A stretch of DNA of 29,836 nt. Source: a virus. The stretch lies in the IMG/VR virus record IMGVR_UViG_3300042924_001744, positions 1 through 29,836 of that record, one strand, 5' to 3'. The stretch's first letter is position 1, and the number at the start of each line of letters is the position of its first letter. Made by a program: the position numbers and the translations under genes. Positions 1-12,843 of this stretch are shown here, in pieces. The notes under the pieces are model-generated. The model had not been told where the DNA came from. It saw only the letters and a list, made by a program, of their open reading frames with translations, and ran no database searches.

Positions 1-94
1 AGACCACAAGCAAGTCATTAAGAAACTCTACGCACTACACACCGAGAATTTAGAATTGAAAAAGCAAGTTAATGACCTAAAAATACTCTTATGA
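1..94 (+). CDS. 3' end of small coiled-coil protein (alternative haplotype)
   Basis: Partial gene cut by the window start; reading from base 2 it gives 30 residues ending at a TGA at 92-94. The peptide starts DHKQVIKKLYALH and lines up with the C-terminus of the complete 90-residue protein at 29075-29347 (DHKQVIKKVYALH), so this is the second haplotype's version of that gene. The last dozen residues have diverged, although the heptad-like pattern of Leu, Lys and Glu persists. Its stop overlaps the HNH gene start as ATGA, whereas in the other haplotype it overlaps the NinG start directly. Function unknown. Confidence 0.75.
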   Translation, partial: DHKQVIKKLYALHTENLELKKQVNDLKILL

Positions 95-495
95 GCCAAA
101 AAAGAACAATGCCAACCAAAGCAAAAATAATTGCACATTGGAATTTAACTTATAAACAAGAATTTACAAGTAAAAATTGTTGGGGGTGTGGCGGTAATGC
201 TGAAACTTTGGAGCGTGCGCATTTATTGGCTAAATGCAAAGGTGGCGCAGATGAGGAAAACAATTTAATTTTACTATGCAGAATTTGCCACGTTTCAATA
301 CAAGAACCAGTTTCTGATACTATTGAACAAGCGGAACACATTAAAAGTTTAATATTAGACGGATTCCCATTTTGGAAAATTATGTTTACATTTTATGCTG
401 AAAAAATTAAAGGTGGAGTTTATGACAAAACAGATTTAACTCGCATCGGAGTTTCAAAAGAAGACCTTGAAAAATTTAAAGAAATAACGAAATGA
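91..495 (+). CDS. HNH endonuclease, haplotype-specific insertion
   Basis: A 134-residue HNH-family nuclease. Seen: a zinc-ribbon CWGCGG near residue 31, an ERAHLL histidine motif near 43, an EENNLILLC segment carrying the two Asn, and CRICH near 66, giving the CxxC...H...N...CxxCH layout of this family. Such free-standing phage HNH genes usually nick or cut DNA and can spread by homing; that role is inferred. The gene is AT-richer than its neighbours and uses more GAT/AAT-type codons. It joins both neighbours through ATGA stop/start overlaps, so it keeps translational coupling. The equivalent junction at 29344 lacks it entirely. It could instead be a cargo gene without homing activity. Confidence 0.85.
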   Translation: MSQKRTMPTKAKIIAHWNLTYKQEFTSKNCWGCGGNAETLERAHLLAKCKGGADEENNLILLCRICHVSIQEPVSDTIEQAEHIKSLILDGFPFWKIMFTFYAEKIKGGVYDKTDLTRIGVSKEDLEKFKEITK

Positions 496-1010
496 AGTCA
501 TGTAAAAAGTGCGGCGAAATCTTTACACCATTTTCGACTTTAGACAAGCACTGTTATGTTTGCAAAAAGACGGAACAAGCGTTAAAAAACCTCGCCAAAA
601 TCAAAAAGGAAAAGGTCAAAAAGCAAAAGGAAGACCTACTAACTACTTCGGACTACCTTAAAATGGCTCAACAAGTGTTTAACAAGTGGGTAAGGCTACG
701 AGACAAAGACCAAGGTTGTATTTCCTGCGGTGGAAAGTTAGGCTCAAAATACGACGCTGGACACTTTTGGAGCGCAGGAGGTCACTCTTCGGTGCGGTTT
801 CACCCTGACAACGTCCACGCTCAATGTGTAGCTTGTAATCAACACAAACACGGTAACTTGATACCATACCGCGAAGCCTTAATAAAGAAAATTGGCTTAG
901 AAAAATACGCTGAAATCGAAAGTTTTGCCCACGACACGAAGAAATGGGACAAGGAAGAGTTGAAAGACTTAATTACTAAGTATAAAAAGAAGATTAAAGA
1001 TGAATTTTAA
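492..1010 (+). CDS. ninG: NinG/Rap-like recombination protein
   Basis: A 172-residue protein of the lambda NinG (Rap) family, a structure-specific nuclease that helps process branched recombination intermediates. Seen: N-terminal zinc-binding cysteines (CKKCGE, then CYVCKK), a basic Lys-rich helix at about residues 35-50, and an HNH-like C-terminal half with CISCGG, DAGHFWSAG, FHPDNVHAQC and CVACNQHKHG. The length fits the family. It starts at the ATGA overlap with the HNH gene and overlaps the next gene by 11 bases. It sits with ERF and YqaJ genes, a typical phage recombination set. A second, diverged copy truncated by the contig end lies at 29344. Confidence 0.9.
   Translation: MKSCKKCGEIFTPFSTLDKHCYVCKKTEQALKNLAKIKKEKVKKQKEDLLTTSDYLKMAQQVFNKWVRLRDKDQGCISCGGKLGSKYDAGHFWSAGGHSSVRFHPDNVHAQCVACNQHKHGNLIPYREALIKKIGLEKYAEIESFAHDTKKWDKEELKDLITKYKKKIKDEF
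858..984 (+). repeat. 127-bp exact overlap with the window end
   Basis: Bases 858-984 equal 29710-29836 with no mismatch; bases 857 and 29709 differ (c and t). The overlap length of exactly 127 matches a common de Bruijn k-mer size, which points to graph closure rather than a biological terminal repeat. Confidence 0.9.
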
Positions 1011-1359
1011 CAATGACTTCCGCTACGACTTACAAGTTGGTCAAGTTTACGAACAAGAATTTGCGAAGTTACTCGGTAGCAAAATAGAAATAAAACGCGA
1101 CTTTCGATGCTTAGAAACTGGCAATATATTTATCGAATACGAATCACGAAATAAACCGAGTGGCATTGCTACAAGTGAAGCGCAGTTTTGGTGCTATTGG
1201 TTAAGCGATAACCATTGCGTATTTATCAAAACCGAAGCGTTGAAGTCACTTTGTAGGGAATACCTAAACACGAAACGAGACATTTTAGGGGGTGACATGA
1301 ATACGAGTAAAGGAATTTTGTTACCATTAAACGACCTCATAAATAAAAATTTACCTTAA
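1000..1359 (+). CDS. Putative PD-(D/E)XK nuclease-like protein
   Basis: A 119-residue protein. Seen: an N-terminal helix with VGQVYEQEFAKLLG, then a KIEIKRD strand, then GNIFIEYESRNKPSGIA followed by EAQFWCYW. The run of acidic/Lys strand, E-x-E strand and 'KPSGI' turn resembles small phage proteins with a restriction-endonuclease-like fold. That assignment is from pattern only and the catalytic residues are uncertain. It overlaps ninG by 11 bases and is the last gene before the early promoter at about 1364, so it closes the transcription unit that begins in the replication region. It may be a resolvase-like or repair nuclease. Confidence 0.5.
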   Translation: MNFNNDFRYDLQVGQVYEQEFAKLLGSKIEIKRDFRCLETGNIFIEYESRNKPSGIATSEAQFWCYWLSDNHCVFIKTEALKSLCREYLNTKRDILGGDMNTSKGILLPLNDLINKNLP

Positions 1360-1363
1360 TGTG

Positions 1364-1392
1364 TTGTGTATTAAAAATAAAGCGTATATTTG
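1364..1392 (+). promoter_or_regulatory. Host-type (TTTG/TAnnTTTG-like) early promoter
   Basis: TTG at 1364-1366, an 18-base spacer, and TATATTTG at 1385-1392, matching the Bacteroidota primary-sigma -7 element TAnnTTTG. It lies in the 55-base gap before the ERF gene, 22 bases from its ATG. The -33 side and the first part of the spacer (TTGTGTATTAAAA) nearly repeat the promoter at 25145. Confidence 0.75.
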
Positions 1393-1414
1393 CTGAAACT
1401 AATAAGAAAAAAAC

Positions 1415-1966
1415 ATGAAAAAAACAGAACAAACCATTGAAGAGGTGGTAAAAGTAGCGGGTCTTTACCCAAAGCTACACGCTGCAAAGCAGAAAATTGG
1501 TAAGGTAGTTAAGAACGCCAATAACCCCCATTTCAAAAAGTCCTACGCTGACATTAACGCACTTGTTGAGTCGGTTGAACCTATCCTTTTGGAAAACGGT
1601 TTGCTACTTATTCAACCAATTGAACAAGGGTTAGTTAGTACTTTAATCATTGACATCGAAACTGGCGACAAAGTAGTTAGTTCAATGCGCCTTCCTGACA
1701 TTCAAGACCCTCAAAAAGTCGGTTCTGCGGTGACTTATTACCGCCGTTATACCTTGCAGTCATTGTTGAGTTTACAAGCCGAGGACGACGATGCAAATAG
1801 TGCCAGTGCAACGGTCAAAAACACGAAGCCAACAATTAGTCAAGAACGCTTTGAGAATGGACTCACGAAAATCGCCAATAAGGAAATGACACCCGACCAG
1901 TTCAAACAAGCGTTGAGCGGTTACCAATTAACAGACCTACAAACTAAAGCCCTTTTATTGTTATGA
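1415..1966 (+). CDS. erf: ERF-family single-strand annealing protein
   Basis: A 183-residue ERF-superfamily recombinase, which anneals complementary single strands during phage recombination and genome circularisation. Seen: the conserved block HFKKSYADINALVESVEPIL near residues 39-58, the GLLLIQP strand, and the diagnostic GSAVTYYRRYTLQSLL near 105-120 followed by EDDDAN. The C-terminal tail (from about 128) is a linker with a short helical end. It is first in an operon and overlaps the YqaJ-type exonuclease by 4 bases (ATGA). The annealing protein plus exonuclease pair is the classic two-component phage recombination system. Confidence 0.92.
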   Translation: MKKTEQTIEEVVKVAGLYPKLHAAKQKIGKVVKNANNPHFKKSYADINALVESVEPILLENGLLLIQPIEQGLVSTLIIDIETGDKVVSSMRLPDIQDPQKVGSAVTYYRRYTLQSLLSLQAEDDDANSASATVKNTKPTISQERFENGLTKIANKEMTPDQFKQALSGYQLTDLQTKALLLL

Positions 1967-2634
1967 AAATTCGCTGCAGCTCGTTAGGTAAGATTATGAC
2001 TTCCCCCAAATCAAAGGGGGAGGTCTTATCTCAAACCGCAAAAACGTATTTAAAGGAACTTGCTTTAGAGGAAAAGTTCGGAATCAGAAAAGATTTCTCA
2101 AGCCGTTACACGGACAAGGGTAATATTCAGGAAGACACCGCAATCGAAATGGCATCTAAGGTATTGAGTTTACCTTTTGCGCTCAAAAACACGGAATACT
2201 TCGAGAACGAATTTATCAAAGGAACTCCCGACCTCATCTTAGAAGACGAAATAATCGACATTAAATGCTCTTGGGACGGTACTACATTCCCTTGGTTTGA
2301 AGACGAACTACCTAACAAAGATTATTTTTGGCAGTTGGTCGGTTACATGTGGCTCACTGGAAAAACGAAAGCCCGTGTAGTGTATTGCTTAGTTGACACC
2401 CCCGAAGATATCGTACAAGACGAGATTCGTAGAACATCTTGGAAAAAGTTTGAGATAGATGTCACCGAAGAAACCGAGAATGAAGTCCGAGCGAAACACG
2501 AATTTAGCCACATAAGCGAAAATAAGCGCATTAGAGCGTTCCAAGTAGAGTTGAATGAGGCTAACATCGAACAAGTGAAAGAAAAGCTGTTACACGCGAA
2601 AGAATACTATAACGAACTAATTGAACGATTATGA
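1963..2634 (+). CDS. YqaJ-type (lambda-exonuclease-like) recombination exonuclease
   Basis: A 223-residue YqaJ-like nuclease expected to resect double-stranded ends for the ERF protein. Seen: the N-terminal CSSLGKIMTSP segment typical of this family, GNIQEDTAIEM with the conserved Glu, then GTPDLILEDEIIDIKCSWD, which holds the PD-(D/E)XK catalytic Asp, Asp and Lys near residues 87-101, and FWQLVGYMWLTG, the conserved Gln/Tyr helix. The length fits the family. It overlaps the ERF stop by 4 bases and the next gene by 4. Codons 12-21 contain a strong inverted repeat, listed separately. Confidence 0.9.
   Translation: MKIRCSSLGKIMTSPKSKGEVLSQTAKTYLKELALEEKFGIRKDFSSRYTDKGNIQEDTAIEMASKVLSLPFALKNTEYFENEFIKGTPDLILEDEIIDIKCSWDGTTFPWFEDELPNKDYFWQLVGYMWLTGKTKARVVYCLVDTPEDIVQDEIRRTSWKKFEIDVTEETENEVRAKHEFSHISENKRIRAFQVELNEANIEQVKEKLLHAKEYYNELIERL
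1998..2025 (+). repeat. 10-bp hairpin inside the exonuclease start region
   Basis: Arms GACTTCCCCC (1998-2007) and GGGGGAGGTC (2016-2025) pair over ten positions with one G-U wobble around an A-rich 8-base loop. It starts 35 bases after the ATG, where a stable mRNA hairpin could slow or gate translation. No T-run follows, so it is not an intrinsic terminator. Confidence 0.6.
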
Positions 2635-2867
2635 ATCTACTTGAATTACTTATACACAACGAAAGAGCGCAAGCCTATCAAGACTCATTGTCAATTGAAG
2701 AACAAATAGAATTGCTTAAGCCGTATAAAAAAAGTGTATTTACTTTTCACATGGAAGACGGAAGAAAAATAGTAAGAGGTGACGATGAAAGCGACAAGGA
2801 AGAAATGGAGGACTTTTTTAAACAGAACCCTCAAGACGGATGCGAATGGATTGAATTTCACAAGTAA
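2631..2867 (+). CDS. Small acidic protein, unknown function
   Basis: A 78-residue protein that I do not recognise. It starts at an ATGA overlap with the exonuclease stop. It is acidic, with a helical first half (SIEEQIELLKPYKK) followed by a strand-like VFTFHMEDGRKIVRGDDES and an acidic helix DKEEMEDFF. There are no cysteines beyond one near the end and no signal peptide. Its place right behind ERF/YqaJ suggests a recombination accessory or host-takeover protein, but that is only context. Confidence 0.7.
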   Translation: MNLLELLIHNERAQAYQDSLSIEEQIELLKPYKKSVFTFHMEDGRKIVRGDDESDKEEMEDFFKQNPQDGCEWIEFHK

Positions 2868-2870
2868 GCT

Positions 2871-3053
2871 ATGAAAAAAGAAAAAAAAACGATTATGTTT
2901 CGCTTAATGATTACACCAACCGAAAAACAATGGATTGAAAACAAAGCCAAAGAAACTGGTTTAACTCAATCTCAAGTGGTAAGGTTTTATTATGTGAATA
3001 ATGTTAAAGAAACGGAAGGTAAATTTAAAAACACGGAAAATGAAAACAGATAG
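2871..3053 (+). CDS. Ribbon-helix-helix-like DNA-binding protein
   Basis: A 60-residue basic protein. Seen: a short N-terminal beta strand KKTIMFRLMITPTEK, then helix QWIENKAKETG, turn, and helix LTQSQVVRFYYVNNV. This strand-helix-helix order with 'LTQSQVVR' is characteristic of ribbon-helix-helix (MetJ/Arc, mobilisation-protein-like) dimeric DNA binders. The C-terminal 15 residues are a charged tail. It probably acts as a small transcriptional regulator, although no operator can be assigned. It starts 3 bases after the preceding stop and overlaps the MazG-like gene by 14 bases. Confidence 0.6.
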   Translation: MKKEKKTIMFRLMITPTEKQWIENKAKETGLTQSQVVRFYYVNNVKETEGKFKNTENENR

Positions 3054-3240
3054 AATAGTAATCCAAGTCCTAAACCAAATAGCCGACCGCAGCGAACGTG
3101 GACTTGAGAAATACGGAACGAACCTCGAAAGAACCGACCTTGAGACGTTAGATTGGTTGCAACACGCACAAGAGGAGGCAATGGACTTATGCCTATATTT
3201 AGAACGATTAAAAGAGCAAATCAAAAACAAACAGTTATGA
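3040..3240 (+). CDS. MazG-like small NTP-pyrophosphatase-fold protein
   Basis: 66 residues from the chosen ATG at 3040. An ATG at 3001 would add 13 basic residues lying entirely inside the upstream gene, so the inner start is preferred. Seen: SERGLEKYGTNLERTDLETLDWLQHAQEEAMDLCLYLERL (residues about 17-57, described here in two halves: the RGLEKYG turn and the HAQEEAMDL acidic helix). These are the helix-turn-helix acidic motifs of short MazG-like all-alpha pyrophosphatases found in many phages. Such proteins hydrolyse (d)NTPs; activity here is inferred. It overlaps the next gene through ATGA. Confidence 0.6.
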   Translation: MKTDRIVIQVLNQIADRSERGLEKYGTNLERTDLETLDWLQHAQEEAMDLCLYLERLKEQIKNKQL

Positions 3241-3422
3241 GTTGTGAACCATTAAACGAACTGCCACCACGAAAAGACGAATACGAGGATGCAATCACGG
3301 ACTTACATTTTCTTTATGACCTATTGAGATGCGAAGGACACGACCCTGAAAGTTCATTTATGAAAGGGATTAAATACGCACACGATTACTTAGATGATAA
3401 ACCAATAAACAAACAAATATGA
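3237..3422 (+). CDS. Small protein, unknown function
   Basis: 61 residues starting at ATG 3237, which overlaps the upstream TGA. A farther upstream in-frame start would lie wholly within the MazG-like gene and is rejected. The protein is mostly helical and acidic with two cysteines, and carries EDAITDLHFLYDLLRCEG and SFMKGIKYAHDYLDD. No family recognised. It ends in an ATGA overlap with the SSB-like gene, so it belongs to the same tightly packed early operon. Confidence 0.65.
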   Translation: MSCEPLNELPPRKDEYEDAITDLHFLYDLLRCEGHDPESSFMKGIKYAHDYLDDKPINKQI

Positions 3423-3655
3423 GTTACGAACACAAAGCAAACACGGGAACGCTTTTCCCTAACAACAAAAAGGCGGACAACCACCCGGACTACAAAGGGA
3501 AGATTAAGGTAGGTGACCAAGAGTACGACATCGCAGGATGGGTAAAGACTACGGACAAAGGACAATTCCTTTCGTTGAAGGTATCTGAGCCGTTCAAACC
3601 CGAACCGCAGAACACCAGCGAGAAAATTGCTAACTCTTCAGGTTTACCATTTTGA
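3419..3655 (+). CDS. Small SSB-like protein with LPF C-terminus
   Basis: 78 residues. The core from about residue 20, YKGKIKVGDQEYDIAGW followed by VKTTDKGQFLSLKVS, reads as alternating strands of a small OB-like or DUF736-like barrel. The tail is polar and ends SSGLPF, which resembles the hydrophobic tip (..PF) by which bacterial SSB proteins recruit partners. This suggests, without proving, a single-strand-binding or DNA-transaction role. The ATP-dependent protein at 28177 also ends in DLPF. Its stop codon overlaps the TTG start proposed for the next gene. Confidence 0.5.
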   Translation: MSYEHKANTGTLFPNNKKADNHPDYKGKIKVGDQEYDIAGWVKTTDKGQFLSLKVSEPFKPEPQNTSEKIANSSGLPF

Positions 3656-3879
3656 GAATAGCAGAACTAACCGCGCTCAATGGCTTTCTTCGGGAGGCTA
3701 TTGGGTCGCGCTTGGAAACTGAATCAATGCGGTCTTTTTGCAGACGGTCTAAAGTTCAGTCAAGCCAAGTCAAGAAATTACTAAACAACGAAGGAGGTCT
3801 AAACACGACCACAGTAGAACGAATCGCACACGCACTAATTGACTCACGTTATGAAGCGAAACAAGACATTTTGATTTAA
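3652..3879 (+). CDS. HTH (Cro/CI-like) DNA-binding protein
   Basis: 75 residues from a TTG at 3652 that overlaps the upstream TGA as TTGA. An inner ATG at 3727 would leave only 50 residues and remove the first helix. Seen: helix LTALNGFLREAIGSRL, then MRSFCRRSKVQSSQVKKLLNNEGGL with an SSQVKKLL recognition-helix pattern, then TTTVERIAHAL. This matches the five-helix Cro/CI-like fold in miniature. It is the only repressor-like protein in the window and may control early genes. No operator identified. Confidence 0.55.
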   Translation: MRIAELTALNGFLREAIGSRLETESMRSFCRRSKVQSSQVKKLLNNEGGLNTTTVERIAHALIDSRYEAKQDILI

Positions 3880-3916
3880 GATATGTGGCAAAAAATAGGA
3901 CTTAACCTTTAACGAG

Positions 3917-4039
3917 ATGAGACGAAAGAAGATTGATAAACAGCACCGAGAGTATCGGAGTAAAAGACGGAAGATAGTAGATATTTGCCGTTATATCTGC
4001 CAACTACCACCTTTTGAAAGATTAGACCCCGAAGAATAA
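3917..4039 (+). CDS. 40-residue basic peptide, possible gene
   Basis: ATG at 3917, TAA at 4037-4039, giving a very basic 40-residue product that begins MRRKKIDKQHREYRSKRRK and ends PPFERLDPEE. It fills what would otherwise be a 180-base gap in a dense operon, and its stop codon falls inside the loop of the terminator at 4027-4050, a common arrangement for a last gene. The charge suggests nucleic-acid contact. There is no family evidence, so it could be a chance frame. Confidence 0.45.
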   Translation: MRRKKIDKQHREYRSKRRKIVDICRYICQLPPFERLDPEE

Positions 4040-4050
4040 ATCGGGGTTTT
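4027..4050 (+). terminator. Intrinsic terminator of the early operon
   Basis: Stem CCCCGA (4027-4032) with TCGGGG (4041-4046), 8-base loop, then TTTT. The loop contains the stop of the 40-residue frame. It ends the rightward early transcription that starts at about 1392. Confidence 0.75.
4035..4050 (+). repeat. Left 16-bp direct repeat flanking the Mom-like gene
   Basis: AATAAATCGGGGTTTT, repeated at 4700-4715 with one mismatch (C for A at the sixth base). This copy includes the right arm and T-run of the terminator; the distant copy has only that half and lacks CCCCGA. Confidence 0.7.
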
Positions 4051-4062
4051 AAATTTAAAAAT

Positions 4063-4701
4063 ATGCAAACAAGTTTATTTAGCCTAAATACAATACAAAA
4101 AGATTTTTTTTCAATCGGGGATGTTCGTGATTTTAAAGTATTACAATGCAGTCGAAAAGAAATAGTAGATTTTATTGAGTTTTGGCACTATTCAAAAAAT
4201 GTTAATGGTCTTACCACAGATTTTTGTTTTAAATTAATCGATGCAGATGGTAATATGATTGGAGCAATGATTTATGGAAAAATAGCAATGGCTAACGTAT
4301 GGAAAAAATATGCGTCTAATGAATTTGAATTGATTGAATTAAAACGATTATGTTGTATAGATAACACCCCAAAAAACACAGAAAGTTTTTTCATTGGTAA
4401 TACTTTGAGGTGGTTGAAAAAAAACACAAAAATAAAAACAGTCATAAGTTATGCGGACACTACTTATTCGCACGAAGGAACAATCTACAAAGCAAGTAAT
4501 TTCAAACATTTAGGTATGACAGCAAAAGGAAAAGTAATAATGTACAATGGTAAAAGATATCACGATAAAACAATAAGGACAAAATATAAAGGAGAATTGA
4601 AACCTTTTGCGATTGAAATAAAAAATGCACTTGAAGTTGGAAAAGCAAATTATGTAGATACACTCGGAAAACACATTTATTTATACAAGTTACAAAGTTA
4701 A
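4063..4701 (+). CDS. Mom-like DNA adenine-modification protein
   Basis: 212 residues. Seen: residues 129-151 read SYADTTYSHEGTIYKASNF then KHLG, the 'AD..-H-G-TIY-ASNF-G' signature of the Mom family, and an N-terminal half (FCFKLIDADGNMIGAMIYG) that looks like a GNAT-type beta core. Mu Mom converts adenine in phage DNA to N6-carbamoylmethyladenine and so blocks host restriction; the same role is inferred here. The gene is markedly AT-richer than its neighbours (GAT, AAT and AAA codons dominate) and stands alone between a terminator and the next promoter, as a moron would. It has no clear promoter of its own, so read-through or a weak AT-rich start site must serve it. Confidence 0.7.
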   Translation: MQTSLFSLNTIQKDFFSIGDVRDFKVLQCSRKEIVDFIEFWHYSKNVNGLTTDFCFKLIDADGNMIGAMIYGKIAMANVWKKYASNEFELIELKRLCCIDNTPKNTESFFIGNTLRWLKKNTKIKTVISYADTTYSHEGTIYKASNFKHLGMTAKGKVIMYNGKRYHDKTIRTKYKGELKPFAIEIKNALEVGKANYVDTLGKHIYLYKLQS

Positions 4702-4715
4702 TAACTCGGGGTTTT
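4700..4715 (+). repeat. Right 16-bp direct repeat flanking the Mom-like gene
   Basis: AATAACTCGGGGTTTT, one mismatch from 4035-4050, offset 665 bases. It begins inside the Mom-like stop codon and runs into the promoter T-tract. It carries the 3' half of the terminator without its pairing arm. Confidence 0.7.
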
Positions 4716-4745
4716 TTTGTTGGTTAAAAAATAATCGTATATTTG
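4716..4745 (+). promoter_or_regulatory. Host-type promoter of the terminase operon
   Basis: TTTG at 4716-4719, 18-base spacer, TATATTTG at 4738-4745: a full Bacteroidota -33/-7 promoter. The 15-base leader to the ATG at 4761 matches, with one mismatch, the leader of the leftward promoter at 14113-14147. Confidence 0.8.
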
Positions 4746-4760
4746 ATTAAAATTTAAGCA

Positions 4761-5018
4761 ATGGAATATGTTTTTTTGATAGCCTTAGGGTGGTTTATTC
4801 AAGAATTTGAGCCTTTCAAGTTTGTAGCCGATTGGATTTATAGCAGAATTAAACCACACCCAGTAATTGAGTACGTTTTTGGCTCGTTGGAATGTTGGCA
4901 ATGTTGCACGTTCTGGTCTGCGTTAGCCATTACTTGGTCGTTTGAAAAGGCGGTTGTCTCTTCGTTTATTGTTTTCGGTCTTCAACTACTTCACGAAGGA
5001 TGGATGCGCAGGAAGTAA
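4761..5018 (+). CDS. Small membrane protein (DUF1360-like)
   Basis: 85 residues with three hydrophobic segments: EYVFLIALGWFIQEF at the N-terminus, CTFWSALAITWSF in the middle and AVVSSFIVFGLQLL near the C-terminus. The ECWQCCTFW motif recalls the 'C-x2-C..W' turn of small DUF1360-type membrane proteins; this is a weak resemblance. First gene behind the host-type promoter at 4716. It could alter the host envelope or exclude competing phages, but nothing in the sequence decides that. It overlaps the next gene by 19 bases. Confidence 0.65.
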   Translation: MEYVFLIALGWFIQEFEPFKFVADWIYSRIKPHPVIEYVFGSLECWQCCTFWSALAITWSFEKAVVSSFIVFGLQLLHEGWMRRK

Positions 5019-5203
5019 GCTTATTCGAGCAACTGAAAGACGAATTCAATGCCGGCAAGGTTAACAAAGTGACCATTGTCAGAGTGCGAGACGTTTACAA
5101 CAAGTATGCAGATAAGCCCGTGAACTATTGCATGTGTTCGAGCGTTCAACGTAGGATATACGCAAAGGACTTTTTAACGTGGTATGCGGAGTTTAATAGA
5201 TAA
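5000..5203 (+). CDS. Small protein, unknown function
   Basis: 67 residues: an acidic helix (SLFEQLKDEFNAGK), a strand-like KVTIVRVRDVY, then YCMCSSVQRRIYAKDFLTWYAEFNR. The CMC pair and the aromatic C-terminus are its only distinctive marks. It overlaps both neighbours (19 bases upstream, 20 downstream), so it is translationally packed between the membrane protein and the sigma-like gene. Possibly an accessory of the latter; no family recognised. Confidence 0.65.
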   Translation: MDAQEVSLFEQLKDEFNAGKVNKVTIVRVRDVYNKYADKPVNYCMCSSVQRRIYAKDFLTWYAEFNR

Positions 5204-5687
5204 GTTCTATACTGACAATTATACGCTGTTGGTGAGTGCTGCGAAAAGACGAATCACGCAGTTAAAGAAATCTATTGAGCCTGAAAGTTTAGTATCATCG
5301 TCCTATTTGTACTTAGTGGGTAAGGCGGACACCATACAAGAAGACGAAATTGAGCGTTTAGCCTTTGGGTTTATTTACTTTGAACTCATGCGCTACAATT
5401 CACAAACGAACCTTAAAGAACGGGTTAACTCGGTGGACTTAGAATTTGACATTAGCGACCTGAATAACCAATCGAACAACCTATTACTTAAAATAGATGT
5501 AAGCGACTTTGAAAAGACGTTAGACAGAGTCGATGCCATACTTTGGGAGGTGTATTATAACAAGGGCATAACTACAAAACGTGACCTTGCAGAACATTTT
5601 AACATTGACCCCAGTAGCGCATTGATATACATTAACGAGTTGAAGCAAAAATTTAGAAATTATGTTGAAGATAAAAGAACAATATAA
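5184..5687 (+). CDS. Putative sigma-factor-like transcription regulator
   Basis: 167 residues. The first third (LVSAAKRRITQLKKSIEPES then LVSSSYLYLVGKA) resembles the helical region 2 of small sigma factors, and residues about 120-160 (LWEVYYNKGITTKRDLAEHF then NIDPSSALIYINELKQKFR) form a region-4-like helix-turn-helix. The middle is acidic. This layout suggests a phage sigma or sigma-like activator for later promoters, which would fit the non-host motif found five times elsewhere. The assignment is from fold pattern and position before the terminase genes, and is not certain. A terminase-associated HTH protein is an alternative. Confidence 0.5.
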   Translation: MRSLIDKFYTDNYTLLVSAAKRRITQLKKSIEPESLVSSSYLYLVGKADTIQEDEIERLAFGFIYFELMRYNSQTNLKERVNSVDLEFDISDLNNQSNNLLLKIDVSDFEKTLDRVDAILWEVYYNKGITTKRDLAEHFNIDPSSALIYINELKQKFRNYVEDKRTI

Positions 5688-5892
5688 CGGAGTGAGCGTT
5701 GAGTACAAGTTGGGGACTGTCCGGGTAACCAAGAAAATCGAGGACTTGACCGAAGCCGACATAAACACGGCTCAAAAGTGGGGGTTGAACTTGGGGAAAT
5801 ACTTTGAGGAAAACACGGAACTACCAACCGAACAACTACCAACCATTGCATACGAAGGTATAGAGGTAAAACCTAAACGCAAAAGAAAATGA
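5662..5892 (+). CDS. Small protein, unknown function
   Basis: 76 residues, starting 26 bases inside the previous gene. It has a beta-rich start (YNGVSVEYKLGTVRVTKKI), an Asp/Glu-rich centre (EDLTEADINTAQKWG) and a Lys/Arg tail KPKRKRK. No recognised family. It overlaps the next small membrane gene by ATGA. Confidence 0.65.
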   Translation: MLKIKEQYNGVSVEYKLGTVRVTKKIEDLTEADINTAQKWGLNLGKYFEENTELPTEQLPTIAYEGIEVKPKRKRK

Positions 5893-6053
5893 AGTTGAGC
5901 CACGTATTCGCTTTTTTAGTCGCTTGTTTTGTCTTCGTGTCGGCACTTTGTTTGATTTACAATGATGCTCACCACGCGATGCAGTTTAGTGGGTGGTCAC
6001 TTATTAGCTACCTTTGTTATTTAATTGCTTTAACTGGAGAAAACGATGCCTAA
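5889..6053 (+). CDS. 54-residue membrane peptide
   Basis: ATG at 5889 overlaps the upstream TGA; TAA at 6051-6053. Two hydrophobic segments are visible, FAFLVACFVFVSALCLIY and SLISYLCYLIAL, separated by NDAHHAMQFSGW, so it is probably a two-pass inner-membrane protein. Size and topology would suit a small holin-like or superinfection-exclusion protein, but it is far from the lysis genes. It overlaps the next gene by 8 bases and fills an otherwise empty 150-base stretch. Confidence 0.65.
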   Translation: MKLSHVFAFLVACFVFVSALCLIYNDAHHAMQFSGWSLISYLCYLIALTGENDA

Positions 6054-6519
6054 GCCTACACCAAGCGAAAACCACGACGACTTTATTTCACGTTGCATGA
6101 GTGACAAAAAAAGCGTGTCTTCATTCCCTGACGAGTCACAACGTTATGCTGTGTGTGAGTCTACTTGGTCAGAAACACGAATGAATATAATTGACCGATA
6201 TAAACAAGCCTTCGCAGATACCTATACCGACTATCCCCAAGCGGCAACCGAAAACGCAAAGATAGCCTTACGCTGGGCAGATGAGAACGGATGGGGCGAA
6301 TGTGGCACACCAGTAGGCAAAGCAAGAGCGAACCAACTAGCGAACCGAGAACCAATAAGTCGAGACACCATAGCACGAATGGCAGGTTTTGAACGACACC
6401 GCCAAAACTCGGACAAAGAACTAGGTGACGGATGCGGACGTTTGATGTGGCTAGCTTGGGGAGGTGACGAAGGTATAGAATGGGCGCAACGTAAACTCGA
6501 ACAAATAGACAATGGCTAA
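6046..6519 (+). CDS. Conserved phage protein with 'DDFISRCM' and 'ADENGWGECG' domains
   Basis: 157 residues in two parts. Residues 1-45 (PSENHDDFISRCMSDK then QRYAVCESTW) form a Cys-containing motif often found at the ends of phage head-processing proteins. Residues 65-155 (KIALRWADENGWGECGTPVG, then ANREPISRDTIARMAGFERH, then GCGRLMWLAWGGDEGIEWA) form a second domain also seen fused to phage portals or proteases. The biochemical role of neither part is known to me. It lies two genes before the terminase small subunit, so a packaging or head-maturation role is likely. It overlaps the next gene by 8 bases. Confidence 0.7.
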   Translation: MPKPTPSENHDDFISRCMSDKKSVSSFPDESQRYAVCESTWSETRMNIIDRYKQAFADTYTDYPQAATENAKIALRWADENGWGECGTPVGKARANQLANREPISRDTIARMAGFERHRQNSDKELGDGCGRLMWLAWGGDEGIEWAQRKLEQIDNG

Positions 6520-6709
6520 ATACTACCTATTAGACGCAGGCAAGAACATGATAAACTTCGCCAAGGCACTCGAAGACGAACTAAAGGTGAATGAAGCGCA
6601 CGTTGTTTTTTACCTTACGGACACGGACGGCTTAATCTGCCTTGAGGAAATAAGCGAGGATGAGTTTTTAGACCACTACGCAAACAACAAAAACACGAAA
6701 GAAAAATGA
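6512..6709 (+). CDS. Small acidic protein, unknown function
   Basis: 65 residues: an N-terminal KYYLLDAGKNMINFAKALEDE, then a strand VNEAHVVFYLTDTDGLICLE, then an acidic helix and a Lys-rich tail. No recognised family. It overlaps the preceding gene by 8 bases and the terminase small subunit by ATGA, which ties it to packaging genes by translation coupling only. Confidence 0.65.
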   Translation: MAKYYLLDAGKNMINFAKALEDELKVNEAHVVFYLTDTDGLICLEEISEDEFLDHYANNKNTKEK

Positions 6710-7125
6710 AATCAAAGTATATAGAGACACCCGAAAAAATGTGGGAGTTATTTGAAGCATATAGGGACAGCAGAAAACCCCGTGAAATACAAAAGGCTAC
6801 ACCCAAGGGAGTGGTAAGCGAGTTTCACACACCCCCGTTAACAATGGAAGGGTTCGAGAATTACTGCTTTGAACACGCAAGTACAATAGACCACTATTTT
6901 AGAAATGAGACGGGGACATACGATGCGTATCGCGCCATCTGTTCGCATATAAGAAAACTCATCAGGCAAGACCAAATCGAAGGTGGCATGGTCGGACAAT
7001 ACAACCCTTCCATCACTCAACGACTAAACGGACTCACTGAAAAGACGGACGTAACTACGGGAGGCGACAAGTTGACACAACCTATTACAGTTAAGATAGT
7101 AGGCAATGGAGATACAAGCCACTAA
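6706..7125 (+). CDS. terS: Terminase small subunit (gp3-like)
   Basis: 139 residues, resembling the DNA-packaging gp3-like small terminase family that recognises phage DNA and regulates the large subunit. Seen: the start KYIETPEKMWELFEAYRDS, typical of these proteins, then PLTMEGFENYCFEHASTIDH with an HTH-like helix pair, then FRNETGTYDAYRAICSHIRK followed by QIEGGMVGQYNPSITQRLNG and a polar tail. The length fits. It overlaps the large subunit by 20 bases, the usual small-large order. Confidence 0.85.
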   Translation: MKSKYIETPEKMWELFEAYRDSRKPREIQKATPKGVVSEFHTPPLTMEGFENYCFEHASTIDHYFRNETGTYDAYRAICSHIRKLIRQDQIEGGMVGQYNPSITQRLNGLTEKTDVTTGGDKLTQPITVKIVGNGDTSH

Positions 7126-8254
7126 CATTTTTTCCCGTAACTGGGACGCACTAAATTCGGACAAGCGGTTTATCATTAACCAAGGTGGCAGCCGTTCAAG
7201 TAAGACGTACTCCCTTTGTCAGATGATTATAGTGTACTGCATTCAAAACCCTAACAAGGTGGTGAGTATAGTACGTAAGACCTTCCCGGCATTGAGGGCT
7301 ACGGTCATGCGTGACTTCTTCGAGATTATGAAGGACTTGGAAATTTACGAAAAGTCGAACCATAACATGAGCGAGAATATATACCGCTTCCCCAATGGTT
7401 CAATAGTCGAGTTTTTCTCGGTAGATGACGAGCAAAAAATAAGAGGGCGCAAACGTGACATTGGATGGTGCAATGAAGCTAATGAACTTTGGTTTGAGGA
7501 CTTCCAACAACTAAACATGAGAACGGAAGAAAAGTTAATCTTTGACTACAACCCTTCGGACTCGTCAAGTTGGTTATACAAGTTACCTACCGAAGAAAGC
7601 GTGTTAATAAAATCAACGTACCGGGACAACCCGTTCCTTCCTGAAAGTATTAAGCGACAAATCGAAGACCTCAAGCGAACGGATGAAGCACTATACCAAA
7701 TTTACGCACTCGGTGAAAAGGCAATAAGCAAATCAAACATTTATAACAACTGGACGTTCTTAGGTCGTAAGCCCCAACGCTTTCAGTCTTACGTATATGG
7801 TCTTGACTTTGGGTACAATCACCCGACTGCACTCATCCGCGTCTATTGGTCCGACGGTGATATTTGGATTGAACCCGTGATTTACGAAAGCTACTTAACC
7901 ACGTCCGAACTCATTGAGAAATTTAAGCAACTGGAAATCGAAAAGACGGTTGACATTCTCGCGGACTACTCACGCCCCGAAATAATAGCCGAACTACAAA
8001 ACGCAGGTTACAACGTGAACAACGCTAACAAGTCGGTTAAGATGGGTATAAACTTCGTAAAGACCTTTGGCGTTTATTGTCAGGAAGACGAAGCACTTAA
8101 AAAGGAATACGAAAACTACAAGTGGAAAAAGGTGGGAGACATAATTACCGAAGAACCCGTTAAGCTATACGACGATGCAATGGACGCGGTAAGGTACGCG
8201 ACGACCTACATTAAAGAGACCTATTACACGGATGACCAATACGTCGCCTTCTAA
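7106..8254 (+). CDS. terL: Terminase large subunit (Terminase_3/PBSX type)
   Basis: 382 residues, the ATP-driven packaging motor and nuclease. Seen: Walker A GGSRSSKT at residues 27-34, an adenine-binding KVVSIVRKTFP, Walker B-like DIGWCNEANE with the catalytic Glu near 124, coupling FDYNPSD near 147, and the RNase H-like nuclease with YGLDFGYNHPTAL (Asp 234), DILADYSRP (Asp 287) and a C-terminal DDAMDAVRYA. Domain order and length fit the PBSX-type Terminase_3 family. It ends at 8254, and its stop codon is the first part of the TAACCA box of the promoter-like motif at 8252. Confidence 0.95.
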   Translation: MEIQATNIFSRNWDALNSDKRFIINQGGSRSSKTYSLCQMIIVYCIQNPNKVVSIVRKTFPALRATVMRDFFEIMKDLEIYEKSNHNMSENIYRFPNGSIVEFFSVDDEQKIRGRKRDIGWCNEANELWFEDFQQLNMRTEEKLIFDYNPSDSSSWLYKLPTEESVLIKSTYRDNPFLPESIKRQIEDLKRTDEALYQIYALGEKAISKSNIYNNWTFLGRKPQRFQSYVYGLDFGYNHPTALIRVYWSDGDIWIEPVIYESYLTTSELIEKFKQLEIEKTVDILADYSRPEIIAELQNAGYNVNNANKSVKMGINFVKTFGVYCQEDEALKKEYENYKWKKVGDIITEEPVKLYDDAMDAVRYATTYIKETYYTDDQYVAF

Positions 8255-8277
8255 CCATTGAACACAATAAATACTTA
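8252..8277 (+). promoter_or_regulatory. Phage promoter-like motif, copy 1
   Basis: TAACCA at 8252-8257, exactly 14 bases, TACTTA at 8272-8277; the ATG at 8285 follows 7 bases later. One of five copies of (T/C)AACCA-N14-TACTTW. There is no TAnnTTTG nearby, so a phage-specific factor is inferred. Confidence 0.65.
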
Positions 8278-8284
8278 GTAGGTT

Positions 8285-9691
8285 ATGGCAATGACACTAA
8301 TAGCAGAACCGCAGGACTTTACACCAGCGTATAACCCTTGTAAGTTTATTTACAACAGCACGAACAAAAACAACGAAGGGTTTAGATATATCTTTGACGT
8401 TTACGAAGAGGGCACGGCTAACAAGGTCGCTGAATACCGGGTACTTCCTACCTTCGGAACGGGTTACGGCGAGGTTGACTTAAGCAAGTTGTTAGGTGCT
8501 AAAGTTGGTCCCGACTTTCAACCTGCTAACTACTCAGAAAGCGACACACCGACTTCAAGATTTAACTACGATGTTAAAGTAGGCGAAGAGTACATAGTCA
8601 CGTTTAACTATACGGCGAACCTCACGAACAATTCAGGCAACGTAAAAATCACCCCAACGGTGGCGCACACGTTTTTAGTAGGTGACCAAGTTGTTGTGAA
8701 CGCGGGCAATAATACTTTAATTTCGGGCTTATGGACTGTGATAAGTGTAACGGGTACCTCTGACTTTACAATCAATGCGTCATGGTCGAACGTGGTGGAC
8801 CCAACGGAAAATGGTACGGTTAAGTACGCAGACAATAGAAAGACGATTATAAGAGACATTGCAACGACTTTAAACAAATGGGTGTTCAATGGCGCAAGGT
8901 CTTGGGTAAGTTTCCCTAACTACCTTTTTACTGACTACCTACTAGACAACACGTCTGCGCTGTTCTTGACTTCGATGTCCTACCGAAAGATGACCATAAC
9001 ACCAAACCAAGAAATATGGTTTAATGGCTTTAATAACGGGGTGACGGGTCGAGTAGTGTTTAACAATAGTAACGGCGACTCATTCTACTATGACGTGACG
9101 AACACCGAAATAACTACACAGCTATGCGTTGCAAGTCCAAACCTTAACTTGACGGTTATAAGTGGCACACTTCCGTTGATTAAGTCTGACACGACTTACT
9201 ACGAGTTTTATTTTACGGACGGCATAGCACCTCCCGACTCGCAGACCTACACGTTTGACATTGACCAACGTTGCGCAATCAATGACTACTATTTAGTGTT
9301 TCTTGACCGTATGGGGTCTTGGGGTTCGTTTGCTTTTCAACTTAGAACTTACGAGACGGGGACAAGTACAAAGCAGTCCTTTAACAAGACGGTTGAGGGC
9401 AAAGTTGGTGGTACTGAGTGGACCTATTCAAGTTACGAAAGGGGAATGACTACCTATTCAAGTACGGTCGAAAAGAACCTTCAACTAAATACCAATTGGA
9501 TGAGCGAAGAAATGGCGGTGTACTTTCAGGAACTCATCACGTCGCCCGTGGTTTATCTTTGGGACGGTGGTCAGTACGTTGCGTGTGTGGTCCAAGAAAC
9601 AGCGTTCGAGGTTGAGCGACAAAGAAATAAAAATCTAATTAAAAAGACGGTTAACGTAAAGTTAGCGAACCAAGACAAGGTTAACATATGA
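8285..9691 (+). CDS. Large beta-rich tail/baseplate structural protein
   Basis: 468 residues, Asn/Thr-rich and predicted mostly beta. The opening (FTPAYNPCKFIYNSTNKNNE) and the end (EWTYSSYERGMTTYSSTVEK, then SPVVYLWDGGQYVACVVQET, then an Arg/Lys strand before NQDKVNI) resemble structural proteins that accompany the minor tail proteins of Bacteroidota phages. An inserted Ig-like segment, about residues 105-180 (PTVAHTFLVGDQVVVNAG), suggests surface exposure. It sits directly downstream of the large terminase, an unusual place for a tail gene. It overlaps the next gene by ATGA. Probably virion; exact role unknown. Confidence 0.6.
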   Translation: MAMTLIAEPQDFTPAYNPCKFIYNSTNKNNEGFRYIFDVYEEGTANKVAEYRVLPTFGTGYGEVDLSKLLGAKVGPDFQPANYSESDTPTSRFNYDVKVGEEYIVTFNYTANLTNNSGNVKITPTVAHTFLVGDQVVVNAGNNTLISGLWTVISVTGTSDFTINASWSNVVDPTENGTVKYADNRKTIIRDIATTLNKWVFNGARSWVSFPNYLFTDYLLDNTSALFLTSMSYRKMTITPNQEIWFNGFNNGVTGRVVFNNSNGDSFYYDVTNTEITTQLCVASPNLNLTVISGTLPLIKSDTTYYEFYFTDGIAPPDSQTYTFDIDQRCAINDYYLVFLDRMGSWGSFAFQLRTYETGTSTKQSFNKTVEGKVGGTEWTYSSYERGMTTYSSTVEKNLQLNTNWMSEEMAVYFQELITSPVVYLWDGGQYVACVVQETAFEVERQRNKNLIKKTVNVKLANQDKVNI

Positions 9692-12342
9692 GTGTACAAA
9701 TACAACTTGAGACGGGCTACCTTGACGTGAAGGAGGGTACTGCCTTCCCTTTGAATTTTGGAGTCGCAGACATTCGTGATGTGAGTAAACGTTCGGGGGC
9801 TTTTAGTAAGACCATCACGTTAACGGGCACGGCTAACAATAACAACTTACTAAACCATTATTACGACGTAAACATTCAGGCAGGAACGTTTAACATAAAC
9901 ACCTTAACACGTTGCTCAGTAATTCAAAACGGGCTACCAGTTTTAGAAAGTGGTTACCTTCAACTTATCGCGGTGAACAAGGTACAAACGACTGCGGACT
10001 ATGAAAACGAAGTTGAGTATGAGGTATTAGTAAAAGACGAGTCTTCGGACTTCTTCACCAAGCTAGGCAACAAGGAACTTACCGACTTAGACTTTACGGA
10101 CCTTAACCACGAGTACCGGGCAATCAATGTAGTTAACTCATTCGTTAACACGCAGACTGACGGCTATAAATACCTTGTCCCGTTTAAGGACTCAAACGAA
10201 TATCTTTTGCAGGATATGAAGCCTGCCATTTATGCGAAGACCTACTTCGACCGTATCTTTGCACAAGCGGGGTTTAGTTACACTTGGTCCACGCTAACGG
10301 CTGCGCACTTCGACAAGTTGATTATACCTTTCAATGGTGAAAAGTCATTGATTAGCAACGTAGACTTACAAGTAGACGCGAACACTACGGAAACTGTTAC
10401 GGGTGGCGAAACTACCTACACAACACCTTTAACGGGGTGGACTGAAACTTTAGATGGTGGCAACTTGTTTGACCCCACTACGGGAGTTTACGATGTACCT
10501 TTCAACTTACAAGCGTCCGAAAATATAGCGGTTGAATTTACGTTCACTGCTGACATTTATTTAACGAACCCTTTAGCGACTACGTTAACATACTACGGGC
10601 AAACGACGCAGTTAACACCTACGTTTGTAATGTACTTAAACGGGTCTTTATATTCGTTTGGGTTTGCTAATAACGGGTTAACACTTACCAACTCTTCCAA
10701 CACTATTGGTTCAGGTACAACCAACGTAGCGACAATTACGGGTACGGCTACTATTTTATTAAGCAACGTAATCACTACGGACTCAATTAGTTTTGAAGGT
10801 GGGTTAGCGTTTGCGTCTAACTATGGTGTTTGGAGGTTTACACCTTTCAACCCAGTAACACCGATAACAACTGAAATAGACTTCACTTCGCTTTCAGTTA
10901 AGATATTGCCTTCTTCGGACATTCTCGGTTATGGTGCGGTGATTAACATGAATAACAGCGTACCGAACAAGGTTAAGCAAGCCGATTTTATTAAGTCATT
11001 GTTCACGATGTACAACCTTTACACCGAACAAGACCCCGACGTAGCTAACAATTTGGTGCTTAAACACCGCGACGATTATTACGACCAAGGGCAGGAAGTT
11101 GATTGGACCTACAAATTAGCTAAAGACAAAGACCAAGCGTTACAATTCCTTCCTGAGTTGAGCGCAAAGAAACTTATTCTCACGTATAAGAACGACAGCG
11201 ACGACCCGAACAAAATTTACTTTGAGGCAACGAAAGAAATCTACGGGCAGTTAGAATTTATATTCAATAGTGAGTACGTAAAGGGAGTTGACACAAAAGA
11301 AATTACATTCTCACCTACGCCAATAGGACTAAGCACGTTCAACGCTTACTTACCTTTGCTTTCAGGGCAACCGAAAACTAATATAAGAATTTTACACGAT
11401 GGCGGTGTAGGAACGTGTGACGCTTATAATATTTATGACTACGGAACAACGGGTGAAGACAACGTAACTACTTACCCAATTTTGCACCATTGGGACGACC
11501 CAATTAACCCGACATTTGATATTCTATTCGCTCAACCCGACTACATGTTTTATGAGGGTTATAATGTCACGAATAACAACCTTTACAACCTATACTGGCG
11601 ACGCACGGTTAATCAAATAAACGTAGGTAAGATGTTGACGGCATACTTTGACCTACGCGAAGACGATATCCAACGGCTTAAGTTAAACGACAAAATTAGA
11701 ATAGACAATAGTTGGTGGACCATTAACAAGATAATCGACTACGACTGCAACGCTCAAAACCTCACGAAGGTAGAGTTGATGAGTGTAGACACCGAAATAG
11801 ATTTAGCACCATTTAAAAAGGGTTCAGTTACTCCGACCACGGTTGGCGACTTAGCAAGTCACACGGGCAGCATCCATTGGAATAATAGTTTTGTTGGTAA
11901 CGTAATACCTTCCACGTCAACGAGTGCAATATACGGACAAGGCAATGTGATACAACCCAACGTTAATGGAATAATCGTAGGCAATAACAAAGTATTAGAC
12001 CAAACGGGAATAACTACCGAACGACTAAGCGCAGATGTTGCGAAAATTGCATCACTTGGGGTTACGGGTGGTATGGCTTTTAATGTCATTGACGCAAGTG
12101 CTAACTACTATATGACTAACGAAGACTATTGTGTTGTATGCACACCACCGAGTGCAATTAACGTGTATCTTCCACCTGCTGAAACTGTCGGTAAAGTCGT
12201 AGTGATTAAGTCAACTGCTTATAATACGGTTTTAATACCAACGTCCGCAACGATTGACGGCTCAGCGTCAAGTATAACAATTTTACCTTACGACAGTCTC
12301 ACGTTAATTTGTCATGCGTCGGGCAAGTGGGTAATTATTTAA
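9688..12342 (+). CDS. Large minor tail protein / baseplate-fibre protein
   Basis: 884 residues, the longest protein in the window. Seen: an N-terminal VSKRSGAFSKTITLTGTANN motif near residues 33-52, recurrent in tail-associated proteins of Bacteroidota phages and prophages; a long beta-rich middle; EEDDIQRL-like LREDDIQRLKLNDKIRID near 665, as in hub-type proteins; and a C-terminal part from about 700 with Gly/Asn/Ser-rich GNVIPSTSTSAIYGQGNVIQ and a final beta domain, consistent with a fibre-like or receptor-contact tip. It is translationally coupled to the 468-residue protein. It probably forms the tail tip that binds the host surface. Confidence 0.65.
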   Translation: MSVQIQLETGYLDVKEGTAFPLNFGVADIRDVSKRSGAFSKTITLTGTANNNNLLNHYYDVNIQAGTFNINTLTRCSVIQNGLPVLESGYLQLIAVNKVQTTADYENEVEYEVLVKDESSDFFTKLGNKELTDLDFTDLNHEYRAINVVNSFVNTQTDGYKYLVPFKDSNEYLLQDMKPAIYAKTYFDRIFAQAGFSYTWSTLTAAHFDKLIIPFNGEKSLISNVDLQVDANTTETVTGGETTYTTPLTGWTETLDGGNLFDPTTGVYDVPFNLQASENIAVEFTFTADIYLTNPLATTLTYYGQTTQLTPTFVMYLNGSLYSFGFANNGLTLTNSSNTIGSGTTNVATITGTATILLSNVITTDSISFEGGLAFASNYGVWRFTPFNPVTPITTEIDFTSLSVKILPSSDILGYGAVINMNNSVPNKVKQADFIKSLFTMYNLYTEQDPDVANNLVLKHRDDYYDQGQEVDWTYKLAKDKDQALQFLPELSAKKLILTYKNDSDDPNKIYFEATKEIYGQLEFIFNSEYVKGVDTKEITFSPTPIGLSTFNAYLPLLSGQPKTNIRILHDGGVGTCDAYNIYDYGTTGEDNVTTYPILHHWDDPINPTFDILFAQPDYMFYEGYNVTNNNLYNLYWRRTVNQINVGKMLTAYFDLREDDIQRLKLNDKIRIDNSWWTINKIIDYDCNAQNLTKVELMSVDTEIDLAPFKKGSVTPTTVGDLASHTGSIHWNNSFVGNVIPSTSTSAIYGQGNVIQPNVNGIIVGNNKVLDQTGITTERLSADVAKIASLGVTGGMAFNVIDASANYYMTNEDYCVVCTPPSAINVYLPPAETVGKVVVIKSTAYNTVLIPTSATIDGSASSITILPYDSLTLICHASGKWVII

Positions 12343-12365
12343 CCAAAAGACGAACTACTTACTTT
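12340..12365 (+). promoter_or_regulatory. Phage promoter-like motif, copy 2
   Basis: TAACCA at 12340-12345 (its TAA is the upstream stop codon), 14 bases, TACTTT at 12360-12365; ATG at 12373. Bases 12360-12373 also form the near-palindrome TACTTTTTAAAGTA, shared with copy 4. Confidence 0.65.
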
Positions 12366-12372
12366 TTAAAGT

Positions 12373-12843
12373 ATGGCACTACCCGGACAATACAACATTA
12401 AATACAAAACACGCGTTCACCTTCAACGTGCAATTCAACAAGAAATACAGCGTCAAGGCTTGGTACAACTTGGTACAATGAAAGACTCAATTCGTATTTC
12501 TGCGGGTAGTGGTGACGTGAATAATTTGTATGTAGAAATTAGTGCAATCTATTACTATATGTTCTTGGACAAGGGCGCGGAACTAACTAACGGCGGTGTT
12601 ATACGTCCGCATTACATTACTCAAAACGCTATGGCTTCGGCTAATGGTCAAAGGTTTATTAGTGGTGCTATTGATGAGTATTTGGCTTTCATGATTAAGA
12701 CTTACCCTTTCTTAAATGCTGACACGGTAGGCATGACACCCGACAATGTAAAGGTTAACATTACTTATAACTTGTTCGGTGCTGACGGCGGTAAGTGGAA
12801 CGGCTTATTTGAGTACGATAAAATGTGGAAGGTTTGGGGTTAA
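12373..12843 (+). CDS. Putative small structural protein (gp10-like)
   Basis: 156 residues: basic N-terminal helix RVHLQRAIQQEIQRQGLVQL, then MKDSIRISAG, EISAIYYYMFLDKGAELTNG, IRPHYITQNAM and a C-terminal IDEYLAFMIKTYPFL. The order 'helix - short strands - YY.Y.L..G..' resembles HK97 gp10-like tail-completion proteins, but the match is loose. It has its own promoter-like motif at 12340. Its stop codon overlaps the stop of the converging leftward gene within TTAA at 12840-12843, so there is no room for a terminator between them. Confidence 0.5.
   Translation: MALPGQYNIKYKTRVHLQRAIQQEIQRQGLVQLGTMKDSIRISAGSGDVNNLYVEISAIYYYMFLDKGAELTNGGVIRPHYITQNAMASANGQRFISGAIDEYLAFMIKTYPFLNADTVGMTPDNVKVNITYNLFGADGGKWNGLFEYDKMWKVWG

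Follow-up and report, generated by a model that had tools for sequence, protein, structure and literature searches.

A Mom-family gene at a terminator–promoter junction that is empty in most related phages

The window, by which we mean the whole stretch of DNA analysed here, is a virus record of 29,836 bases that carries genes of a tailed phage, including terminases, portal, tape measure and endolysin. A near-identity search of positions 1–12400 against phage records returned no matches. The 15 best of the 1001 records that match its large terminase are Parabacteroides or Flavobacterium phages, at 32–33% identity, and this sequence affinity makes a Bacteroidota host plausible. The recombination genes and the junction downstream of them comprise the following features.

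492..1010, + strand: NinG/Rap junction endonuclease (phrog_171, E=1.7e-68)
1415..1966, + strand: Erf-like single-strand annealing protein (phrog_2324, E=3.1e-36)
1963..2634, + strand: recombination exonuclease (phrog_5715, E=6.4e-63)
3652..3879, + strand: g3652, conserved left-flank gene (weak HTH_26 match, E=0.0033, below cut-off)
3917..4039, + strand: small 40-aa ORF, the final ORF before the terminator, with its TAA stop codon in the terminator loop
4027..4050, + strand: complete intrinsic terminator upstream of mom (arms 4027–4032 and 4041–4046; T-run cut to 4)
4035..4050, + strand: left 16-bp repeat (small-ORF stop codon, 3′ arm of the complete terminator and 4-T tail)
4063..4701, + strand: mom, 212 aa, Mom family of GNAT-fold enzymes (PF25680, phrog_1384, fold 8bv8_A)
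4700..4715, + strand: right 16-bp repeat, an orphan terminator 3′ arm that starts inside the mom stop codon
4716..4745, + strand: promoter-like TTTG-N18-TATATTTG, intact after the insertion and conserved in relatives
4761..5018, + strand: g4761, conserved right-flank gene, the first after the promoter

Beyond g4761, positions 5184–5687 encode a protein of 167 aa, conserved and with weak HTH similarity that falls below the cut-off (E 0.006), which is possibly a regulator of downstream genes.

The product of 4063–4701 is a true member of the Mom family, as an earlier note made from the letters alone had proposed. It matches the Pfam Mom family PF25680 (E=1.9e-32; 113 bits against a cut-off of 27.1; model positions 2–186 of 202) and phrog_1384 (E=3e-60), and Mu Mom (8bv8) was the sole strong match in a sequence search of the PDB (E=7e-6). 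An AlphaFold2 model of the protein, built from 28 sequences (pLDDT 85.6), has 8bv8_A as its top match by VIA (Z 18.7, 1.9 Å over 147 aligned residues; next row Z 15.5), and Foldseek again placed Mu Mom first (1.2e-12; next entry 9.3e-6). Structure alignments put the identity to Mu Mom at about 20–21%. According to its title, the 8bv8 entry is the inactive mutant S124A; Ser108 of the window protein is aligned to the alanine in that chain and pairs with the mutated residue, S124 of Mu Mom (alignment offset +16), and it is invariant in 28 of the 28 aligned homologues. PADLOC returned no match for the protein.

Passages of two earlier papers describe Mu Mom as moving an acyl group onto adenine N6 (PMC7824862) and as shielding phage DNA from restriction (PMC6483171). 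Most likely, the protein of the window would also add a bulky group to adenine N6 of the phage's own DNA and thereby block host restriction, a chemistry and a role that we read across from Mu. The gene has a G+C content of 0.286, the lowest among 43 listed window genes (z = −2.7 against the other 42), in keeping with its initial description as AT-rich. Its dN/dS is 0.11 against the homologue in contig L002 and 0.07 against those in L004 and L008 (saturation made the comparison with L003 not computable), ratios which indicate that mom is under strong purifying selection.

Direct repeats enclose the gene. The left copy, AATAAATCGGGGTTTT at 4035–4050, and the right copy, AATAACTCGGGGTTTT at 4700–4715, are identical at 15 of 16 positions and lie 665 bases apart, as first noticed by eye. 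Both match the repeat pattern exactly, and the pattern has no other site in the window even with three mismatches, a looseness at which 1.08 matches would be expected by chance. A pair of 16-mers with at least 15/16 identity in the 60-base flanks arose in 2 of 2000 dinucleotide shuffles of positions 3900–4800. The full terminator stem had been assigned to the left copy only, and folding bears this out: the left hairpin has 6 pairs (−10.0 kcal/mol) followed by 4 T, and the right copy, at −0.6 kcal/mol, forms no hairpin, has no 5′ arm and sits in a run of 7 T. The simple terminator that was predicted to return on loss of 665 bases does so in silico, as a hairpin of −10.2 kcal/mol followed by 7 T. 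The right repeat moreover matches, without any difference, the 3′ half of the terminator that L047, a relative with an empty site, has in complete form (CCCTGAG...CTCGGGG, 7 T).

The arm pairs found among relatives (CCCTGAG/CTCGGGG, CCCTGAC/GTTGGGG, CCCTGA/TCAGGG, CCCCG/CGGGG and CCCGGAG/CTTCGGG) covary, and the hairpin is therefore real. An Rfam search gave no match at the gathering threshold. A terminator scan returned about chance numbers of predictions, among which the + strand hairpin at 4027–4050 did not appear, presumably because the scan demands at least 5 T. The end codons of the 40-aa ORF form the 5′ arm of the hairpin, an overlap kept in the window and 26 relatives except L049, in which the terminator 3′ arm at the small ORF is lost.

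Relatives were gathered by means of the downstream gene, two more genes and a DNA pattern for the promoter. The site could be read from g3652 to g4761 in 27 contigs, the window counted in; this count leaves out L056, the contig of which begins too late to cover the site, and the more distant relatives by terminase (L094 to L158). Identical sites (L050/L053, L052/L054, L058/L059/L060 and L065/L069) reduce the 27 contigs to 22 distinct sites. No insert separates the stop codon of the 40-aa ORF from the promoter in 23 of the 27, in which the two are 33 (nine contigs), 32 (two), 31 (eleven) or 67 bases apart (one, L071, which carries another small change). The same distance is 698 bases in the window and 699 in L002, the two contigs of the 27 that have mom in the slot. 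The nine empty sites at 33 bases are thus shorter by exactly 665 bases, the length that relatives were expected to lack if the gene had been cleanly acquired. When these bases are removed from the window, it aligns continuously with L047 at 87% identity over 1123 bases, with no gaps in the 200 columns around the join. The adjoining gaps vary more widely, from 106 to 1781 bases between g3652 and the stop of the small ORF and from 16 to 464 between the promoter and g4761. Small genes occupy the gap from promoter to g4761 in L055 (5813–5998) and L049 (5553–5998), which makes it the third gap of this junction to vary.

The window and L002 share one insertion and therefore represent one event. The two contigs are 94–99% identical over about 4100–5000, which takes in mom, the right repeat, the promoter and g4761. 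Identity is 68–78% at 5100–5799, and it is 52–53% at 3800–3999, a value that results in part from a 54-base length difference there, before returning to 85–94% at 3400–3799. Base by base, the small ORF of the window shares 71% identity with its L002 counterpart and 83% with the one in L047. The dS between window and L002 is 0.125 for mom and 0.13 for g4761, and g4761 of L047 stands at 0.39. The shared block of identity and the equal dS imply that mom moved from one background to another as one piece with its right flank; the left boundary of the transferred block would lie at or near the terminator, as judged from the fall in identity.

Other genes occupy the same slot in two further relatives. 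In L049, a 157-aa DNA methyltransferase-family protein (phrog_954, E=5e-61; PADLOC MTase_II, 3.9e-56) stands instead of mom and is followed by its own full terminator and then by the same promoter. Among 50 records of related phages, this methyltransferase was found in one, which is the L049 slot itself. The slot of L063 holds a 153-aa protein (DUF5843, phrog_18407), which we modelled from 12 sequences (pLDDT 87.4). D73, D83 and K85 are invariant in 12 of 12 of these, in the arrangement D73...D83-I-K85 of a D...(D/E)xK motif. Its best PDB alignments are to the restriction endonucleases Eco15I and NhoI (Z 8.5, 3.6–3.7 Å), followed by I-Ssp6803I (Z 7.6), DpnI and Holliday-junction resolvases. 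The assignment as a PD-(D/E)XK nuclease-like protein is only moderate, because Foldseek gave no match at E<=0.001 and its best E was 6.6e-3. The cargo types so far are thus a DNA modifier, a methyltransferase and a nuclease-like protein, and three are too few for statistics. The boundaries of the L049 and L063 cargo differ within the same junction.

The left terminator beside cargo has a T-run of 4 in the window, 4 in L002 and 5 in L063. Each of the 23 empty sites has 6 or 7, and no left terminator remains in L049. As window and L002 represent one event, the short T-run next to cargo amounts to two independent cases at most, and it may be a mere by-product of the insertion point.

The TTTG...TATATTTG / TANNTTTG motif, which we take to be a Bacteroidota promoter, is conserved in the relatives. 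On the + strand, TANNTTTG does not occur between 2323 and 4738. With 42 occurrences found in the window and 37 expected it is not enriched, and its absence upstream of mom is therefore a weak negative. A weak negative, too, is the lack of a listed + strand sigma-70-like match at 2774–4596, in a scan that gave about chance numbers. As mom has no recognisable promoter of its own, we infer that it is probably expressed from upstream by read-through of the weakened left terminator. The likely role of the enzyme would be an early, low-level adenine modification against host restriction.

We propose that mom entered as single-gene cargo at the junction where the terminator behind the recombination genes meets the promoter of the following block of genes. 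Before the insertion, the recipient would have had a terminator like that of L047, the 3′ arm, T-run and promoter of which survive at the right repeat, and the insertion would have left a complete but short-tailed terminator to the left of mom. The exchange was probably carried out by the phage's own Erf, exonuclease and NinG at short terminator homology, such as donor and recipient would share if both carried the terminator. According to passages of one study (PMC3945230), Erf/exo of phage D3 equalled lambda Red in recombining identical substrates and substrates of 78% identity, deletion of rap lowered Red-mediated exchange 3-fold, and Rad52-like recombinases are preponderant on short, diverged homology; the substrates described there were 700–800 bp, far longer than 16 bp. 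A homology of 16 bp is short even for phage recombinases. Taken as a whole, we consider it probable that mom encodes a Mom acyltransferase directed against restriction, that it came as single-gene cargo through phage-recombinase exchange at the terminator, and that it is expressed by read-through.

A different history, in which the slot held mom ancestrally and became empty in most contigs through deletion between the 16-bp repeats, would make use of the same repeats: they would permit an exact deletion of 665 bases, and the joined product folds as a terminator. That product, however, would be a hybrid terminator of the window's type, which occurs in none of the collected loci; the 23 empty sites have covarying arm pairs of their own, such as CCCTGAG/CTCGGGG in L047. 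The gene's presence in so few contigs and its extreme composition also argue for gain over loss, as do the other Mom subfamilies that further relatives carry elsewhere, and we regard deletion as quite unlikely. We give similarly little weight to the insertion of a mobile element or a homing event, with the 16-bp repeat as a target-site duplication. Direct repeats do flank the 665-base unit, the L063 cargo resembles I-Ssp6803I among other PD-(D/E)XK enzymes, and an HNH gene lies at 91–495. The unit nevertheless consists of mom only, with no transposase, integrase or nuclease ORF; the cargo of L049 and L063 has other boundaries in the same junction; and no such repeat is evident in the more distant Mom loci inspected by eye.

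GNAT folds are also found in protein and small-molecule acetyltransferases, and 982 of the 999 aligned PDB chains reach Z 5, so wide is the distribution of the fold. Yet Mu Mom is clear of all others by sequence, Foldseek and VIA, and the window protein retains the serine at which mutation inactivates Mu Mom, which makes an enzyme acting on protein, tRNA or a host metabolite instead of DNA very unlikely. An artefact of assembly at a repeated terminator is a natural concern for a metagenome contig with a direct repeat. It is highly improbable here, given that the gene and its right junction recur in a separate contig, L002, where the left flank differs, and given the intact ORF and the purifying selection on it.

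Mom-family proteins are spread widely: 297 of 50,697 phage records contain a match. Mom chemistry in a Bacteroidota phage had been thought remarkable in the earlier note; given this distribution, the enzyme is a further member of a widespread family, and the interest lies in its insertion history and in the restriction-related cargo slot. The nearest phage-record match, at 68%, is from a Geobacillus phage, followed at about 57–62% by Corynebacterium, Staphylococcus, Synechococcus, Klebsiella, Pantoea and Vibrio phages. Sixty of the 297 matching rows, sampled across the list, contain no Bacteroidota phage, and none of the isolated-phage matches listed, for all three subfamilies described below, names a Bacteroidota host. 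In IMG/VR, 45 loci match mom, and L002 alone among these shows the backbone genes of the window.

Genome contigs yielded no relative in a profile search with the single mom protein; a second search with the mom alignment found four. In one of these contigs, from a Paludibacteraceae MAG (L168, 2600–10475), a Mom 69% identical to that of the window lies among ORFs that by eye resemble DNA methyltransferases, and a contig of bacterium TMED198 (L169) has two different Mom-like stretches, at 529–1197 and 2855–3478. Upstream of mom in L007, at about 2970–3078, we saw by eye an imperfect hairpin like integron attachment sites; a repeat search of that locus did not support an array, and a search near Mom in L003, L004 and L007 for repeats of the cassette kind gave nothing convincing.

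Within the phage group itself, 50 of 92 related records, many of them fragments, were scanned for Mom. Seven had one copy each above the cut-off (window, L002, L047, L050, L053, L070 and L149), a count that leaves out two further sub-threshold matches. These seven fall into three groups joined by long branches: the window type, a Mu-like type (L050, L053 and L149; support 100/100) and a third type (L047 and L070; 98/92). L050 and L053, which do not differ in either Mom or site, may represent a single phage. Among the isolates listed, the third type is closest to Listeria phages, at 49–50%, and the Mu-like type to Pseudomonas phages and Mu. Each type has its own junction: the third lies before NinG, the Mu-like type follows the exonuclease gene, or g3001 in the case of L149, and the window type follows the small ORF. 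The position just before NinG, which holds the HNH gene in the window, has a Mom of the third subfamily in L047 (919–1575) and L070 (1571–2209), and this gap is possibly a second exchange site.

We can go further and entertain, as a rather doubtful extension, that the terminator–promoter junction beside the recombination operon is a dedicated swap slot for restriction-related genes. Erf and the exonuclease would exchange cargo by annealing at the terminator, each insertion would keep a full terminator and the promoter, and the short T-run would tune read-through such that a potentially harmful modifier is made early and at low level; the operon would then be a magnet for at least three Mom subfamilies.

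The closest known counterpart is phage Mu, the Mom of which shares with the window protein the Pfam family, the GNAT fold and the S124 position; single-gene DNA modification is predicted for the window Mom likewise. It differs in belonging to another subfamily than the Mu-like Moms of the relatives, and in its surroundings. The mom of Mu is annotated beside com in phage records, and Com activates mom translation, as stated in part of PMC6483171. In the com–mom operon of Mu, com encodes a small zinc-finger protein with four zinc-binding cysteines, and we saw no Com-like gene beside the mom of the window: the upstream ORF (3917–4039) has 40 aa, two cysteines and no PHROG match.

The initial description of the gene as a moron holds in part. 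Like morons, it is a single foreign-looking gene between gene blocks that is absent from the site in close relatives. Morons often bring their own promoter and terminator, according to passages of PMC2147016, and in this the window mom differs, having neither a complete terminator of its own nor any recognisable promoter. Portions of PMC9122126 describe a gap at a constant place, bounded by two conserved phage genes, in which the cargo varies among relatives. The slot resembles that system, as described there, in this respect and differs in that its cargo appears to consist of nucleases or of genes that protect phage DNA, not of anti-phage systems, in that its empty form is a terminator–promoter junction of about 33 bases, and in having three cargo types so far. 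A non-exhaustive literature search, with coverage of few subscription journals, showed no Mom at a terminator slot in the titles and abstract openings listed. Within the main text of the MetaGPA paper (PMC8670742) no passage on Mom was found, and the parts of the Flavobacterium phage paper (PMC7761591) that were covered mention Mom only for Mu.

The locus offers a rare resolved before-and-after of a phage gaining a DNA-hypermodification gene, with exact empty sites and an occupied sister, and the two other restriction-related genes in the same slot add to this picture. It is a clean, recent example of phages swapping DNA-disguising tools, and it provides a concrete case for testing a weakened terminator as the expression control of a foreign gene. 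When the two additional Mom subfamilies are considered, which related phages carry at different junctions of this region, adenine modification seems to have been selected for repeatedly and independently within a single group of phages, probably phages of Bacteroidota.
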